IMG/VR virus record: IMGVR_UViG_3300028423_000519
Coordinates: 1-36,080 of that record
Direction: 5' to 3' (one strand)
Length of the DNA: 36,080 nucleotides
Source of the DNA: a virus
The position numbers and the translations under genes are program-made. The notes beneath the pieces were generated by a model, which saw nothing but the letters and a program-made list of their open reading frames with translations, ran no database searches and was not told the DNA's origin. Shown here piece by piece: positions 3,715 to 16,660 of the stretch (positions are counted from its first letter, which is position 1; each line of letters begins with the position of its first letter).

Positions 3715-5698
3715 TGCGGAAGAACTGAACATCATTCTGCAAGTGCGGGATCAGCAGTTTCAGAAGGCGCTCAAAGCTGACCAGCGGCGAGTAAACAATT
3801 TCAGCAGCCGGGTTCGCAAAGACACCCGAGCTGTAACAAAATCGTTCAATACTATGGGGCGATCTGCCGGGGCAAACCGGGCCGCAATGCAGAATGTCAG
3901 CTTTCAGTTGCAAGACATTTTCACGCAAATCAGCATGGGTACGCCGATAACGCGCACTCTTTCTATCCAACTTCCGCAGCTTCTGGGCGGCTTTGGCGCG
4001 CTTGGCGCGGCTGTCGGTGTTGGTGTTGGTGCGTTGGGTATGTTTGCCCCTGCGCTATTGGACAGTACAGATGCGGCGGGGGACTTGGAGGACCAGCTTA
4101 AAGGGCTGTCCGAAGCTGTGGGCGCTTTGAATGATGCGCAGGAAATGGCTGCGTCAAGCAGCTCTGACCTGATTAACCAATACGGGAATCTTGCGCCGGT
4201 GGCGCGAGAGCTGCTTGACATCCAGCGGCAGGTTGCGGAAATCCGCGCTATGGAAGCGCTGGACACCGCCACGCGCGGGATGGCCGATGCTCTGGGCGTT
4301 GGCGGTGCGTTGGATTTTGCGGCAGACAATATCCGCGACATCAAGGGCAGCATGGAGGCGCTGCGCGCAGAACAAGACGCCTTGAACGCATCGGCGCGTG
4401 ATTTGTCGGACACGCAGTTGCGCGCCGCGATCAAGCGCGGAGATGAAATAGCAAACGAGCTTGCTGATCTCGGAATTCTTCGCCGCAATATGGACGATCT
4501 TGCGGATATGTTCGGCATCACCGAGGATGCAGCTACGGAAGTCGCGGCCAAGTTTGCCGAAATCGGCGCAGCGGATGGGCCAGCACAGCAAGCGCAGGCG
4601 ATGATCGATCTTGCTTCCTTCATCAAGCAGGCGTCGGGCAATCTGTCCGACGCAGAGGAAGAAGGTGACGCGCTCTATTCGCAACTTTTGGAGGCGGCGC
4701 GACAGGCGCTGTCTTTGTCTGCTGTGGATTTGCACTCAAATATCGGCGCTGGGGCAGATGAGGCCGACAGACTGGCCGGCAATCTTGAGCGTGCTGCAAT
4801 TTGGGAGGCTGCTCGCGTTCAGCACGAAAGGTCGTCTGGTCGCTACTCGGGCCGTGGGGGAGACCCAAGACAATTTGACACCGATGGACGTTTGGGCGGC
4901 GGGTTTGTTCCGTCTCAAGATATTGTGGATCGGGCCAACAGCATGATGTCCGGGTCTTCTGGGCGCAAGGGATCAAGCGGTGGAAGGGCACGCACGCCGC
5001 GTGACGTGTTGTCCGATTTGGTCAAAGAGGTTGCGTTAAATGAGCAGCTTTTGGGCGCTTCCGAGGCGCGCGCACAAGTCATGCGGCGGCTTGGCGATGA
5101 TGCCGAGAACTACAACCAGACCGAGATCAACGGCGTGATCCAGCGGGTTCAGGCGTACGAGACCGAGAGGGCCGCGCTGGAAGAAATCCAGGCGCAACAG
5201 CAGAATGTTGCCGACACCATCGAAAACGAAATGACCAGTGCGTTCACGGGCATCATTGACGGCACCAAGACAGCGAAAGAGGCTTTCGCGGACATGGCGC
5301 GAAACATCATCGCAGAGTTGATGCGGGTTCTGGTTGTTCAGCAGATGGTCGGCAGCTTTGACAGCAAAACCGGCTCTGGCACCGGCATTGTCGGGGCGAT
5401 TATGGGCGGGCTGTCAGGTCGCGCCTCTGGCGGCTCTGTGATGGCGGGTAACGCATATCGAGTAGGGGAGAACGGGCCGGAGCCTTTCGTGCCAGCGCAA
5501 AACGGGCGCATCTTGTCAGTGGCGCAGGCCAAGTCAGCAATGGGGCAGCAGGGGGCGGGGCAAACAGTCAATCAGACCATCAATGTCACGACTGGCGTGC
5601 AGCAGACCGTGCGGGCGGAAATCAAGTCGTTGATGCCGCAGATCACAGAAGCCGCAGTGGCGGCGACACGGGCGGATAATCGCCGGAGGCCGACATAA
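3704..5698 (+). CDS. Tail tape measure protein
   Basis: The 664-residue product follows the chaperones, as a tape measure must. It has an N-terminal helical region ('ADQRRVNNFSSRVRKDT'), a hydrophobic glycine-rich stretch at about residues 88-118 ('LLGGFGALGAAVGVGVGALG'), and a long alpha-helical middle rich in Ala, Asp and Leu. The C-terminal part has 'MTSAFTGIIDGTKTAKEAF' and 'RASGGSVMAGNAYRVGENG', the common lambda-gpH-like end. Its length is short for a siphovirus and predicts a tail of roughly 100 nm by the usual 1.5 angstrom per residue rule. No peptidase domain is seen. Confidence 0.9.
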   Translation: MAISAEELNIILQVRDQQFQKALKADQRRVNNFSSRVRKDTRAVTKSFNTMGRSAGANRAAMQNVSFQLQDIFTQISMGTPITRTLSIQLPQLLGGFGALGAAVGVGVGALGMFAPALLDSTDAAGDLEDQLKGLSEAVGALNDAQEMAASSSSDLINQYGNLAPVARELLDIQRQVAEIRAMEALDTATRGMADALGVGGALDFAADNIRDIKGSMEALRAEQDALNASARDLSDTQLRAAIKRGDEIANELADLGILRRNMDDLADMFGITEDAATEVAAKFAEIGAADGPAQQAQAMIDLASFIKQASGNLSDAEEEGDALYSQLLEAARQALSLSAVDLHSNIGAGADEADRLAGNLERAAIWEAARVQHERSSGRYSGRGGDPRQFDTDGRLGGGFVPSQDIVDRANSMMSGSSGRKGSSGGRARTPRDVLSDLVKEVALNEQLLGASEARAQVMRRLGDDAENYNQTEINGVIQRVQAYETERAALEEIQAQQQNVADTIENEMTSAFTGIIDGTKTAKEAFADMARNIIAELMRVLVVQQMVGSFDSKTGSGTGIVGAIMGGLSGRASGGSVMAGNAYRVGENGPEPFVPAQNGRILSVAQAKSAMGQQGAGQTVNQTINVTTGVQQTVRAEIKSLMPQITEAAVAATRADNRRRPT

Positions 5699-11511: not shown

Positions 11512-11964
11512 ATGCCACGATCACCTATCCGCTCAAGCGGCAAAGACGTTATTGGCGATGACGGCGCGGTCCTGATTTCCATCGCCCAGGGCGAACAGCT
11601 ACAAATCGGGTTTGACCTGGATTGGGTGTCTGACCTGAGCGGCTACACGATTACTGCGAAGGTGGTCGAAGGGCTGAACCTGCCGGGGGATGGCGCAGAG
11701 CCTCCGCTTCAGGAAGAGCCGACCACCAAGGTCATCACCGATCTCACTGTCATTGATCCAAATGTGACGGACAGCAAATTCATCGTCGTCTTGCCGCACG
11801 ACCTGATCGACCAATGGGACACGGAGCCGACGCCGGATGATCCGGTTTACGGGTTCCTCGCGATCAGCATTGCAGACACCGGCGTTGGCAGCCTTCAGCA
11901 AATCCGAGTGCCTGTGCGGGGCATGATCGAAGCCGTTTACAATCCTCTGGAGTCCACAGCATGA
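11512..11964 (+). CDS. Hypothetical structural protein between tail tip and fibre
   Basis: The 150-residue product starts MPRSPIRSSGKDVIG and is beta-rich and acidic, with 'ISIAQGEQLQIGFDLDWVSD' and 'LSGYTITAKVVEG', which look like an immunoglobulin-like or BppU-type N-terminal fold used in phage baseplates. Position between the gpJ-like gene and the fibre suggests a linker or adaptor for fibre attachment. Its stop overlaps the fibre ATG (ATGA), so the two are probably co-translated. No family name can be given with confidence. Confidence 0.7.
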   Translation: MPRSPIRSSGKDVIGDDGAVLISIAQGEQLQIGFDLDWVSDLSGYTITAKVVEGLNLPGDGAEPPLQEEPTTKVITDLTVIDPNVTDSKFIVVLPHDLIDQWDTEPTPDDPVYGFLAISIADTGVGSLQQIRVPVRGMIEAVYNPLESTA

Positions 11965-14900
11965 CCACATATACCGTAACGCTTTCTCAAGTCGGGATGC
12001 AGGGCGCGCCTGGTGTTGATGGCGCAGAGCTGAATTTTCAGGGCGCGTGGGTGGAGCCGCGCGGCTATGCGACTGACGATCTGGTATCGCACAACGGTAG
12101 CACCTATGCCTGCATTCTCGGTCACACGTCCACCACTGATGATGAGCCGGGTGTTGGCGTCAATACCGCGACCTACTGGACCATCTTCACCGAGAAGGGC
12201 GATAAGGGCGACCAAGGCGATCAGGGCATCCAAGGCGTTCAGGGCGTTCAGGGTGAGACCGGGCCGGGCTTCACGGGCGGCACCTACAACCCGGGAACGG
12301 GCGCAGTCACATTCACCTCTGAGGATGGCATCGGCTTCACAACGGATGACATTCGAGGCGATCAGGGCGACAAGGGCTGGTCCCCGGTTTTTGTGATTGC
12401 CAGCGATGGTGCGCGCCGGGTTTTCCAGGTTGACGATTGGGTCGGCGGCGAAGGCACGAAGCCTGCAGTGGGTGATTATGTCGGGCCGACCGGGCTTGTG
12501 GCTGACATCGCCAATGCGGTCGATATTCGCGGCCCCAAAGGTGAGATCGGTGATACCGGCCTTACGGGCGACACGGGGGCAACCGGCGACCAAGGCGATA
12601 AGGGCTGGTCTCCGATCCTCGTGATTGCCAGCGACGGCGCGCGTCGGGTGTTGCAGGTCGATGATTGGGCCGGTGGCGCGGGCGCAAAACCAGCGGTCGG
12701 GGATTACGTGGGCGCAGCGGGCCTCGTGACTGACGTCGCCAACGCGGTGGATGTCCGGGGGCCTATTGGCGCGACGGGCGACCAGGGCATTCAGGGCATC
12801 CAAGGCATCCAGGGTGAGACCGGCGCGACCGGTGCGACAGGTGACAAGGGCTGGTCTCCGATCCTCGTGATTGCCAGCGACGGCGCGCGTCGGGTGTTGC
12901 AGGTCGATGACTGGACAGGTGGCGAAGGCACGAAACCGGCGACGGGCGACTATATCGGGCCGACCGGCCTTGTCAGCGTGATCGGTAGCGCGGTTGACAT
13001 TCGCGGGCCGGAAGGTGCGGCGGGTGACGGTGCAGGCGACATGCTGGCCTCCACCTATGACCCGCAGTCGATTGCGGGCGATGCGTTTGCGCGGGCCAAC
13101 CACACCGGCACGCAGGCTCTGTCCACGATTTCGGATGCTGGGACTGCCGCGGCGCTCGATGTCGCCGCGACAGGTGATGCTGCTGTGGGCGAAGTCGTGA
13201 AGGGTGACGACACCCGCCTCACGGACGCCAGAACCCCGACCACCCACACGCACACCAAGTCGGACATCACCGATTTCAGTGATGCGGACTATGCCACGGC
13301 GGCGCAAGGCGGTTTGGCTGACACTGCGATTCAGCCTGCGGACATCGGCACGGCGGCGCCTCTTGATGTTGCCATGTCAGGCGATGCCTCGGTTACAGAA
13401 GTGGTCACGGGCAATGACAGTCGCCTGAGCGACAATCGCAGCCCAACCGCGCATACGCACACGCTTTCGGAGATCACCGATGCGGGCACTGCGGCTGCCA
13501 GCGACGCATCCGATTTCGCAACAGCCGCCCAGGGGTCGAGTGCCGACACGGCGTTGCAGCCTGGGGATGCTGTCGATCAGACCTCGGCTACTGGGTCTGC
13601 TGCAATCCCAGCCGGGACAGAAGCGGAGCGTGACGGCACACCGTCAGCGGGGTATCTGCGGTTCAACTCGGATGCGGGGTCGTTCGAAGGCTATGATGGT
13701 TCCGAGTGGGGCGCGATTGGCGGCGCAGGCGGCTCATCTGTCGCTCTGGACGGTCCCATCAGCGCCTATGTCGGCCAGGAAAAGGCCTACACGATCACCG
13801 ACTATTCCGCCTTCGCCGACTATTCCGTCGCAGCCGCGTCTGGCACGGCGACGATCAGCGGTGATACGATCACCTACACTGCGCCGGCGTCGGACGGGAC
13901 GGACACGCTGACCGTCACGCGCGATGGGGTTGGCGTGGCGTTTTCGATCACGGTGCTGCCTGCGGGCGTTGACACGCCGACGCATGTGGCCCCGTCTGAT
14001 GGTGCGACGGATCAAGGCGGCTCCGTAACGCTGCAATCCTCGGCATTTTCTTGGTCGGGGCTGTCGGACACGCACGCATCTGCCGACTGGCAAGTGGCGA
14101 CGGATAGCGGCTTTTCGAACATCGTTGCAAGCGCCACGGCGGATGCCAGCAACCTCACGTCTTTCGAGGTCACGGGCCTGAGCGAAAGCCAGACCTATTA
14201 CTGGCGCGTGCGACATACAGGTGCGAGCAATGGTACATCAGACTGGTCCACTGCGACGACATTCACCACAGCCGCGTCGTTCGGCGGTCTGATCGGTGTG
14301 GCGGGTGCGCAGGGCTTTGGCGTGGGCGAATATCCCGGCACGCTGCCATCCGGCTTCTCGAATTTGTCTGGCAATACCGACCCGGCGAACGCCAACTACG
14401 GCAATTATGAATATAGCGACGGCTCGATCATGGCATTCGTGCCCCGGTTCTATTACCGGATCGGTGATGCCGCCTCGCCACATTACGCGACGTACGGGGC
14501 CAATGCGATCGACATCGCGGGTGTCGATACATACGCCGATGAAGCTGCGGCCAACGCGGCGGGGTTCGCCATGCACCGGGCGTTCATTGACGCTGCCACG
14601 GTCAAAGACGGCTTTTTCATCGACAAATATCTGTGTTCCAAAAACGCAGGCGACGATGCGGGCAAATCAGTGCAAAACGGCGTGCCAATCTCGCTGACCG
14701 ACAGCACCAGCTATACGCGCTCGGACGGCATGACCGGCTGCACCGGCATCCTCGCTGACGCGGTTGTTCTCAGCCGGGCGCGGGGCGCGGGCTTCAATGC
14801 GGCATCGGCCTTCATGTATTCGGCGCTCTGGATCTTGGCCTTGGCGCACGGGCAGGCGGCGACATCCGCCACGAATTGCGCGTGGTATGACAGCGGCGGC

Positions 14901-15593
14901 ACGACGAATTACCCCAAGGGGTGCAACGACGGTGCCTTGGGTGACGCGGATGATGCGTCGCTGTCATTTACGACTGCGGGGGATGGCAATGCAGATAAGC
15001 CGCTCACCGGCAGCGCAAGCGATCTCGCCAAGACAGCACATAACGGCCAGGACTGCGGCGTGGTCGATTTGAATGGCGCGATGTGGGAGGTGCAGCTCGG
15101 CATCACCGCGCCGGGCAGTAGCGCGACAGACACCACGCAGATCAGCTCCGGCGATGTTTACGTCTTGCAAGAGGCGCAGGCCTTGGGCGACCTCACCGGC
15201 GGCTACGGCGGCGCGACCGACGCATGGGGTGACGCCACGCATCTGGGCACGCTCTACGATGCGGAGACCGGCTTGATGCCTTGGGGCAGCGGCACGGGCT
15301 GGGAATATCTGGGCAGCGGCACCAACCAGGTGCTTGATGGTGCAACGTCGGGTCAAGGGTATCAGCGCATGGCAGTGGGCCTGCCAATGGCAACCACCAG
15401 CTATGATGCGACGGGCACCAATCTGTTCGGTCTGGATGGGCAATACACCTACAACCGGGCCAATTTGTGCCCGATCGCCGGCGGCTATTGGTCCGATGCC
15501 TCGGACGCCGGCCTCGGCGCGCGCAACTGGGTCCGCAGCCGGTCGAGTGGCACCACCCTCGCCGGGTTCCGGGCCGCCGCCTATGGACCGTAA
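11961..15593 (+). CDS. Tail fibre with C-terminal C-type-lectin-like variable domain (DGR variable protein)
   Basis: The 1210-residue product has a carbohydrate-binding-like segment at residues 28-76 ('FQGAWVEPRGYATDDLVSHN'). Collagen-like Gly-X-Y stretches follow, alternating with three copies of a 'GWSPILVIASDGARRVLQVD' module at about 135, 211 and 293. Next come 'THTHTKSDITDF' and 'AHTHTLSEITDAG' fibre repeats, an Ig-like domain near 592-665 and an FN3 near 670-770. From about 775 it has a formylglycine-enzyme / C-type-lectin-like domain ending 'GARNWVRSRSSGTTLAGFR' and AAAYGP. This ending is typical of diversity-generating retroelement targets, and its last 130 bases match the downstream template repeat. 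It should be the adhesin of the tail. Confidence 0.9.
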   Translation: MTTYTVTLSQVGMQGAPGVDGAELNFQGAWVEPRGYATDDLVSHNGSTYACILGHTSTTDDEPGVGVNTATYWTIFTEKGDKGDQGDQGIQGVQGVQGETGPGFTGGTYNPGTGAVTFTSEDGIGFTTDDIRGDQGDKGWSPVFVIASDGARRVFQVDDWVGGEGTKPAVGDYVGPTGLVADIANAVDIRGPKGEIGDTGLTGDTGATGDQGDKGWSPILVIASDGARRVLQVDDWAGGAGAKPAVGDYVGAAGLVTDVANAVDVRGPIGATGDQGIQGIQGIQGETGATGATGDKGWSPILVIASDGARRVLQVDDWTGGEGTKPATGDYIGPTGLVSVIGSAVDIRGPEGAAGDGAGDMLASTYDPQSIAGDAFARANHTGTQALSTISDAGTAAALDVAATGDAAVGEVVKGDDTRLTDARTPTTHTHTKSDITDFSDADYATAAQGGLADTAIQPADIGTAAPLDVAMSGDASVTEVVTGNDSRLSDNRSPTAHTHTLSEITDAGTAAASDASDFATAAQGSSADTALQPGDAVDQTSATGSAAIPAGTEAERDGTPSAGYLRFNSDAGSFEGYDGSEWGAIGGAGGSSVALDGPISAYVGQEKAYTITDYSAFADYSVAAASGTATISGDTITYTAPASDGTDTLTVTRDGVGVAFSITVLPAGVDTPTHVAPSDGATDQGGSVTLQSSAFSWSGLSDTHASADWQVATDSGFSNIVASATADASNLTSFEVTGLSESQTYYWRVRHTGASNGTSDWSTATTFTTAASFGGLIGVAGAQGFGVGEYPGTLPSGFSNLSGNTDPANANYGNYEYSDGSIMAFVPRFYYRIGDAASPHYATYGANAIDIAGVDTYADEAAANAAGFAMHRAFIDAATVKDGFFIDKYLCSKNAGDDAGKSVQNGVPISLTDSTSYTRSDGMTGCTGILADAVVLSRARGAGFNAASAFMYSALWILALAHGQAATSATNCAWYDSGGTTNYPKGCNDGALGDADDASLSFTTAGDGNADKPLTGSASDLAKTAHNGQDCGVVDLNGAMWEVQLGITAPGSSATDTTQISSGDVYVLQEAQALGDLTGGYGGATDAWGDATHLGTLYDAETGLMPWGSGTGWEYLGSGTNQVLDGATSGQGYQRMAVGLPMATTSYDATGTNLFGLDGQYTYNRANLCPIAGGYWSDASDAGLGARNWVRSRSSGTTLAGFRAAAYGP
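12366..13010 (+). repeat. Three tandem ~75-residue modules in fibre stem
   Basis: The module 'GDKGWSP(I/V)..VIASDGARRV' + 'QVDDW.GG.G.KPA.GDY' occurs at about 12366, 12594 and 12840. Copies two and three are almost identical at the DNA level over about 70 bases, while copy one has diverged. This suggests a recent duplication or gene conversion. The collagen-like Gly-X-Y linkers separate the modules. Confidence 0.75.
15464..15593 (+). repeat. DGR variable repeat (VR) at 3' end of fibre gene
   Basis: These 130 bases align without gaps to 16057-16186 (offset 593) with 110 identities. Ten of the 20 differences are at adenines of the downstream copy, which has only 20 adenines in all. In the first 80 bases seven of eight differences are at adenines (for example template AAT TGG AAC AAT against TAT TGG TCC GAT here). 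It encodes the last residues of the fibre's lectin-like domain through to the stop, the expected VR position. Confidence 0.85.
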
Positions 15594-15601
15594 GCATGTG
15601 C

Positions 15602-15619
15602 GTGGCGCGATAGCGCCAC
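15602..15619 (+). other. DGR target hairpin/cruciform just downstream of VR
   Basis: A perfect 7-bp inverted repeat GTGGCGC / GCGCCAC surrounds the tetraloop GATA and begins eight bases after the VR stop codon. In the Bordetella phage DGR a short inverted repeat with a 4-base loop directly downstream of VR is needed for efficient retrohoming, and GRNA-like loops recur in other phage DGRs (from memory). GATA fits that form. No T run follows, so it is not an ordinary terminator. Confidence 0.7.
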
Positions 15620-15637
15620 ATCCACGGGAGACATGAT

Positions 15638-16051
15638 GTGCAGACGCAGCGATCCGAAAATCCGCAAGCCGCGATCTTCCACAAGTGCCGAGAGGTGATC
15701 AAGTTGTTGAACATCCATCTCAATCACTTCCCGCGTCACGAGAAATACGGGCTCTGCCAGGAAATCCGGCAGGCAATGTATGACGTGTATGGTCTTCTGG
15801 TGGAATGCCAGAAGCGGTTCCACAACAAGACCAGCCTGACGAAGCTGAATGTCCGGCATGAGCAATTGCGCATGCTGGCCAATCTGGCCTTCGAGTTGGG
15901 CTATTATGACTATCATCAGAACAAGCGCACGCGGTCCCAGACCGAAGCGCTGCGCCGATACACTGCCGCCTCGGTTCTCATCAATGAGCTGGGCGCGATG
16001 ATCGGCGGATGGCTTCGCAGCCTTGGGGCTGCGGAGAGGGCGGGGGCTTAA
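15638..16051 (+). CDS. avd: Accessory variability determinant (Avd), four-helix bundle protein of DGR
   Basis: GTG at 15638 follows GGGAG at 15627-15631. The 137-residue product is helical and basic. It has 'LCQEIRQAMYDVYGLLVEC', 'SLTKLNVRHEQLRMLANLAF', and ends with 'RRYTAASVLINELGAMIGGW' plus LRS. That last pattern (INE-G-M-GGW) is the signature of DGR Avd proteins, which form a pentameric bundle and bind the reverse transcriptase and template RNA. Length is close to the 128 residues of the Bordetella protein. It lies between VR and template repeat, the usual order. The reverse transcriptase that should follow is absent. Confidence 0.88.
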   Translation: MQTQRSENPQAAIFHKCREVIKLLNIHLNHFPRHEKYGLCQEIRQAMYDVYGLLVECQKRFHNKTSLTKLNVRHEQLRMLANLAFELGYYDYHQNKRTRSQTEALRRYTAASVLINELGAMIGGWLRSLGAAERAGA

Positions 16052-16056
16052 GATGT

Positions 16057-16186
16057 TTTGTGCCCGATCGCTGGCGGCAATTGGAACAATGCCTCGGACG
16101 CCGGCCTCGGCGCGCGCAACTGGAACAGCAGCCGGTCGTATGGCTTCTCCTACGCCGGGTTCCGGGCCGCCGCATACGGGTCTTAA
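16057..16186 (+). repeat. DGR template repeat (TR)
   Basis: The segment starts six bases after the avd stop and is 84.6% identical to VR. Read in the VR frame it would encode GGNWNNASDAGLGARNWNSS, with AAT/AAC asparagine codons at the positions that vary in VR. That is the hallmark of a template repeat. It has no start codon in this frame and is not part of a longer gene. In other DGRs this RNA is the template for mutagenic reverse transcription. The 33 bases that follow lead directly to an unrelated gene. Confidence 0.83.
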
Positions 16187-16219
16187 CGATGACACACAGT
16201 AACAAAAAGGAACTGTATT

Positions 16220-16660
16220 ATGCCCATGTATAAATACAAGCGCATCACCACGCCTGGTCCCAACGGCACCGTGCTGACATTCCGCGCAGCCGACGACAGC
16301 GCAGCGACGGAGATTGCCGAGCTGGACGGCTGGCATTACGTGCATGTGCCGGACGGTGAGACTATCCCCGATCAGCGCGCAGATATCGAGTGGACCTCAG
16401 TCACGATGACGGATGAGCTGCGCGCGCAGTTGCGCGCCGCGTCTCGGCACGAAAAAAACATCAAGCGCGAAATCCAGCGCCGCATCCGTGCTGTCTACAG
16501 CGCCGACGACGAGCAGTATTTTTCGCGCATTGGCGTCGGTGCCGCGCTCGGGATGTATCAATTCCAGCCGGGCGAACAGGAAGCGCTGCTGGAGTTCGGC
16601 CAATTCATCGAGGGCATCCGCGAATGGGGGCGGGCAGAGCGCGCCAAGATCGGGCTGTAA
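16220..16660 (+). CDS. Hypothetical protein after the DGR
   Basis: ATG at 16220 follows AAGGA at 16207-16211. The 146-residue product begins MPMYKYKRITTPGPNGTVL, has a beta-rich first half with 'DGWHYVHVPDG', and a helical basic second half ('LRAASRHEKNIKREIQRRIR', then 'EALLEFGQFIEG'). It occupies the place where a reverse transcriptase gene normally lies but has no RT motifs (no YxDD, no polymerase fingers). Tail-fibre assembly or lysis-associated functions are possible by position. I do not recognise the family. Confidence 0.72.
   Translation: MPMYKYKRITTPGPNGTVLTFRAADDSAATEIAELDGWHYVHVPDGETIPDQRADIEWTSVTMTDELRAQLRAASRHEKNIKREIQRRIRAVYSADDEQYFSRIGVGAALGMYQFQPGEQEALLEFGQFIEGIREWGRAERAKIGL

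Follow-up and report, generated by a model that had tools for sequence, protein, structure and literature searches.

The diversity-generating retroelement (DGR) of the Bordetella phage BPP-1 has the order mtd/variable repeat (VR) - hairpin - avd - template repeat (TR) - spacer - brt, in which the spacer recruits RT-Avd (RT, reverse transcriptase) and holds the priming adenine (PMC12875486). The hairpins of phage DGRs have a GRNA loop and a GC-rich stem of 7-10 bp (PMC3240598). We analysed a 36,080-bp stretch of viral DNA (hereafter the window), whose gene order up to the TR is that of BPP-1, and which also has in common with it a GRNA-loop hairpin placed after the VR, a protein of the Avd family and a VR that forms the end of a fibre-type gene. 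In contrast to BPP-1, the window is devoid of an RT, a spacer and an IMH*-type template end, and the 3′ half of its template is a VR-type gene end. No description of such a TR/VR chimera was found in the open-access literature, itself an incomplete source.

Structure of the phage record

The window is a linear IMG/VR virus record derived from an integrase-bearing tailed phage. The record is incomplete: it begins within the major capsid gene and stops past an HNH gene, and the missing part probably comprises mainly the terminase, the portal and the first part of the capsid gene. The left part contains head-tail connectors, tape measure, tail tip, a 1210-aa fibre-like gene (11961-15593), avd and the repeat; to the right of the repeat there are the gene starting at 16220 (the 16220 gene), endolysin, integrase, methyltransferase, helicase and primase. 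A megablast comparison with annotated phages matched no closer phage. Relatives of avd were detected in only four of the 395 genomes searched around one Rhodobacterales MAG, and, besides that MAG, the other three are distant; hits so few and so distant do not permit the phage host to be named. Phages related through their tail-tip/helicase genes (L200-L207) gave no match to the target, avd, RT or 16220 gene, and the tail-tip/helicase relatives L099, L200 and L203 yielded no RT.

Target gene, hairpin and avd

The target gene (11961-15593, plus strand), defined by its ORF and Pfam matches, encodes a fibre-like protein with collagen-like repeats, which is 67% identical over 816 residues to the target of L077 (2840908651_000002), the closest complete relative found and one that carries an RT. 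The C-terminal 343 aa of the window protein, where a DGR target would have a variable domain with a C-type lectin-type fold, matched nothing in Pfam. As in a functional DGR, the 3′ end of the gene is a VR (15464-15593, plus strand), identified as a direct repeat, and a target-recognition hairpin follows it. The VR ends in GCCTATGGACCGTAA, i.e. its end is of the VR type GCCTAT, as in the RT-bearing relatives. The hairpin (GTGGCGC-GATA-GCGCCAC; 15602-15619, plus strand), recognised by sequence and fold, has a 7-bp stem and a GATA loop, which agrees with the description of phage DGR hairpins (PMC3240598).

The accessory variability determinant, a further component of functional DGRs, is also present. 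The avd gene (15638-16051, plus strand; GTG start) is full length and encodes a 137-aa protein matching Pfam bAvd (50.3 bits; cut-off 40), the PHROG "Avd protein of DGR" (8e-22) and NCBIfam Avd (79.3 bits; cut-off 80). It is 76-77% identical to the Avd proteins of the RT-bearing L077 (76%) and L002, and retains 40 of 43 conserved Avd residues. Amino-acid changes relative to L077 are not in excess in three of four outgroup comparisons, and number 12 versus 8 in the fourth. This pattern suggests an Avd without relaxation, and would also fit its continued use.

RT-bearing relatives

In the RT-bearing relatives avd is followed by a conserved leader, whose last bases are ATG, and then by the template. 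The template is AAC/AAT-rich along its whole length, and its end is GACTAT in place of the GCCTAT of the VR; 3′ of it there is a conserved spacer of about 100-150 nt, and then the RT. The GACT/GCNT mark is found in 136 of 144 RT-bearing relatives and is missing from the window. Across these 144 relatives, 93% of the mismatches fall at template adenines, and the median number of other mismatches is 0. An RT accompanies avd, at the cut-off applied, in 43 of the 48 viral records that contain a relative of avd; the 13 genomes with such relatives all carry an RT. L077 and the window are 75% identical at the DNA level along 2.7 kb that extend from the target past avd into the TR, and they have the same template leader. 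Past the TR homology L077 retains, unlike the window, the adenine-rich 3′ half of the TR, GACTAT, the spacer and a 343-aa RT.

Some individual features of these relatives may be added. At the TR start (e.g. around 6047 in L006), the ATG is nearly invariant in an alignment of 103 relatives. In L005 most adenines of the TR (at 1871) are gone (7 mismatches at adenines, 10 elsewhere), and GACTAT and an open RT are kept; its template has apparently been overwritten by VR-like sequence. A TAG stop interrupts the RT of L037, which matches RVT_1 only partly, and this locus is likely to be another inactive DGR.

The second repeat and the missing RT

The direct repeats at 15464 and 16057 are 84% identical over 135 nt, and the longest exact run common to both is 35 nt. 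The second copy is preceded by the end of avd and the former template leader (GAGAGGGCGGGGGCTTAAGATG; 16022-16056, plus strand), which is in register with the RT-bearing relatives, including L077. The 5′ part of this copy (16057-16138, plus strand; 82 bases) thus lies at the template position, directly behind the conserved leader, and is template-like and adenine-rich: seven of its eight differences from the VR are at its adenines (hypergeometric P 6.6e-6), with a single non-adenine difference. The 3′ part (16139-16186, plus strand) is instead a VR-type gene end (YGFSYAGFRAAAYGS followed by a stop) without GACTAT and with mutated adenine sites; only 3 of 12 mismatches are located at adenines, several differences being found at VR adenines instead. 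From about 16139 the window copy reads TAT GGC TTC TCC TAC ... GCA TAC GGG TCT TAA, and its last ~48 bases encode GFRAAAYGS-stop. Over the whole 135-nt alignment, 10 of 22 mismatches are at template adenines. A template-plus-spacer profile from which L077 and the window had been left out could be aligned to L077 along almost its entire length (153.7 bits), whereas the window was matched only up to 16141.

The preference for template adenines that characterises a functional DGR is therefore confined to 16057-16138, and the repeat has no template 3′ end distinct from that of the VR (IMH* vs. IMH, here GACT vs. GCNT). Judged from its sequence, the region 16057-16186 is a template/VR junction that contains no intact template repeat. 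The VR, the GATA-loop hairpin, the intact avd and a second copy of the VR end, all listed in the initial annotation, are present; that second copy, which it named a template, is not an intact one. Its own counter-proposal, that the repeat is a mere duplicated gene end, proved half right, since it applies to the 3′ half, and the 5′ half is template-like.

The spacer and the RT gene of the relatives are replaced in the window by a 33-nt intergenic stretch (16187-16219, plus strand), in which no spacer match was found. A profile of the spacer alone, which scored 69.6 bits with the held-out L077, gave no match in the window at E 10; the spacer RNA that serves for priming 3′ of the TR is thus missing. 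A search of the whole 36-kb record with RVT_1 was also without a match. No DGR-type RT is present at the locus, and the RVT_1 search agrees with the earlier statement that no other reading frame of the window looks like an RT. The next gene (16220-16660, plus strand) encodes a conserved protein of unknown function. It was considered as an RT candidate and rejected, in agreement with the initial annotation, because it matched no RT family and its homologue is the gene that follows the RT in the RT-bearing relatives. In the comparison of related phages proposed for this locus, the RT-bearing relatives have the spacer and RT there, before the 16220 homologue.

RT-less relatives

Two IMG/VR records, L134 and L135, which are identical over 5.9 kb and possibly come from related samples, resemble the window in having an intact avd, a template-like 5′ half joined to a VR-type 3′ half with a stop, and the 16220 homologue as the next gene, with neither RT nor spacer. 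They differ from it in their avd (about 45% identical), breakpoint and flanks. Other RT-less relatives have lost the spacer and the RT (whole, N-terminal part or catalytic core) at the same locus by internal deletion, HNH replacement or acquisition of another fibre end, and contain no TR/VR chimera. Among them, L218 and L245 have an intact avd and a template leader fused to the RT C-terminus, in L012 the intact avd is joined to the end of another fibre gene, and L159 has an intact avd with an HNH gene where the TR and RT would be; the fusions found in further relatives belong to the same group. In further RT-less relatives part of avd is lost too. Most RT-less relatives are without a second VR copy, and in those of the other RT-less records that were searched, fusion remnants were the only trace of a second RT. 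When unique loci with full-length avd were compared, the spacer was matched in 142 of 147 RT-bearing loci, partly by construction, as many of them supplied the spacer model, and in none of the six RT-less loci with intact avd (the window included), which supplied none of it.

In L129, L151 and L166 a fibre end is located directly 5′ of the 16220 homologue, without avd, TR or RT. L122, which also lacks these three components, has a fibre end followed by an HNH gene and then the 16220 homologue; it is the closest by 16220 protein (63%), and has CGATGA after the stop codon in common with the window.

Origin of the chimeric repeat

It is probable that the window contains a decayed DGR remnant, once a system for rapid mutation of the tail-fibre tip, which arose by TR/VR recombination accompanied by loss of the RT, and that its fibre is frozen. 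In the ancestor the locus would have been arranged like that of L077, with the order target(VR)-hairpin-avd-TR-spacer-RT-(16220 gene). A crossover in the TR/VR homology may then have joined the 5′ part of the TR to the VR 3′ end of another fibre gene, which would have been located directly upstream of the 16220 gene; the donor would most simply have been a relative lacking a DGR, either co-infecting or resident. Relatives of this donor type exist, but the exact donor was not found among them, one record only sharing the end pattern. Such a crossover could have removed the template 3′ end, the spacer and the RT in one step, leaving avd, the VR and the hairpin intact. With the template end, the priming spacer and the RT all gone, no mutagenic cDNA would be produced from the window copy, so that the fibre would be stuck at its last VR sequence. 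The fibre is thus most likely frozen, and this part of the initial annotation (RT lost, fibre frozen) is supported by the repeat devoid of template 3′ end and spacer, and by the record devoid of RT. The same annotation argued from the intact avd for continued use. The gene is indeed intact, but recent loss of the RT would explain this without use: the loss is probably recent, because outside the adenines the 5′ part of the repeat has diverged from the VR at just one site, and we infer that avd is a passenger that has not yet decayed.

Two other routes to the present structure were rejected. Self-mutagenesis of the TR by retrohoming should keep GACTAT and the spacer (cf. L005), both of which are missing from the window. 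Recombination between TR and VR within one genome would not place the 16220 gene after a VR end.

It is very unlikely that the DGR is still active through an RT encoded elsewhere (in the host, another prophage or the unsequenced part of the phage) and acting in trans, for which avd and the template would be kept. The intact avd, VR and hairpin would suit such an arrangement, as would the occurrence of RT-bearing relatives in phages of several hosts and the presence of an RT in every genome with an avd relative; moreover, since the record ends in the capsid gene and after the HNH gene, an RT in the missing terminase/portal part is conceivable. However, borrowing of an RT would require that the template RNA be retained with its spacer, and a locus sharing an RT would need a usable template. 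The spacer and the IMH*-type end are gone from the window repeat, and its 3′ half is already VR, without template adenines. In BPP-1, RT-Avd recruitment and cDNA priming are functions of the spacer (PMC12875486); a template without a cDNA start site makes a borrowed RT unlikely, and, as far as can be read from its sequence, no RT would be expected to function with the window copy. If RTs were borrowed, RT-less loci with intact avd should have retained the spacer, whereas none of the six has it, and the other RT-less records searched hold no second RT, fusion remnants aside.

An assembly artefact is an unlikely explanation. In this case the assembler would have merged reads from two strains, one with an RT and one without a DGR, at the TR/VR homology, and the DGR of the actual phage would be either complete or non-existent. 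The junction falls exactly in a strain-shared repeat, where assemblers can jump, and the record is a virus contig. Nevertheless, the two window copies have at most 35 nt in common as an exact run, the same architecture is found in the distant L134/L135 (whose agreement over 5.9 kb may reflect related samples), and clean RT losses at other breakpoints are common in the family. There is also little reason to expect that the second copy is a silent cassette, exchanged with the VR by homologous recombination to vary the fibre independently of an RT. Although it keeps a VR-type frame with a stop and 84% identity to the VR, and the arrangement arose at least twice, a single partial copy would yield little variation, simple decay fits too, and most RT-less relatives have no such copy. 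It seems equally improbable that chimeras beside an intact avd, having formed at least twice in distant phages, are more than decay and have been kept because the fibre is still varied, with neither spacer nor RT of their own, by a helper RT or by plain recombination with the second copy.

Recurrent loss of RT

The decayed DGR favoured here is not isolated: RT losses at several breakpoints indicate that RT loss is recurrent in the family, having occurred several times by similar routes, and no special selection is needed to account for it. The locus would illustrate how phages switch off a hypermutation system. Since the template shares homology with the variable region, an RT-bearing phage that recombines with a DGR-less relative may cleanly lose the RT and the priming RNA, and keep the fibre, the hairpin and avd. 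RT-based surveys miss such RT-less loci, and an intact avd with a copy of the VR is no evidence of a trans-acting RT. The RT-less relatives are common enough to test when a frozen fibre is favoured.

In L151, a DGR-less phage, the fibre end (3890-4017) is still strongly template-like, with many Asn codons and a score of 52.9 bits with the TR profile. HNH genes of one family (PHROG 374) are located on the minus strand at the place of the relatives' TR and RT in L159 (4225-4860) and L122 (4295-4948). In L058 (8001-8297), L060, L061, L062/L063, L090 and L148, internal deletions have produced in-frame fusions of a part of Avd with the RT C-terminus; the deletions of L057 and L179 do not keep the frame, and that of L197 is frameshifted. 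Of the nine avd-RT deletions called independent, six keep the frame (P about 0.04, assuming a chance of one in three).
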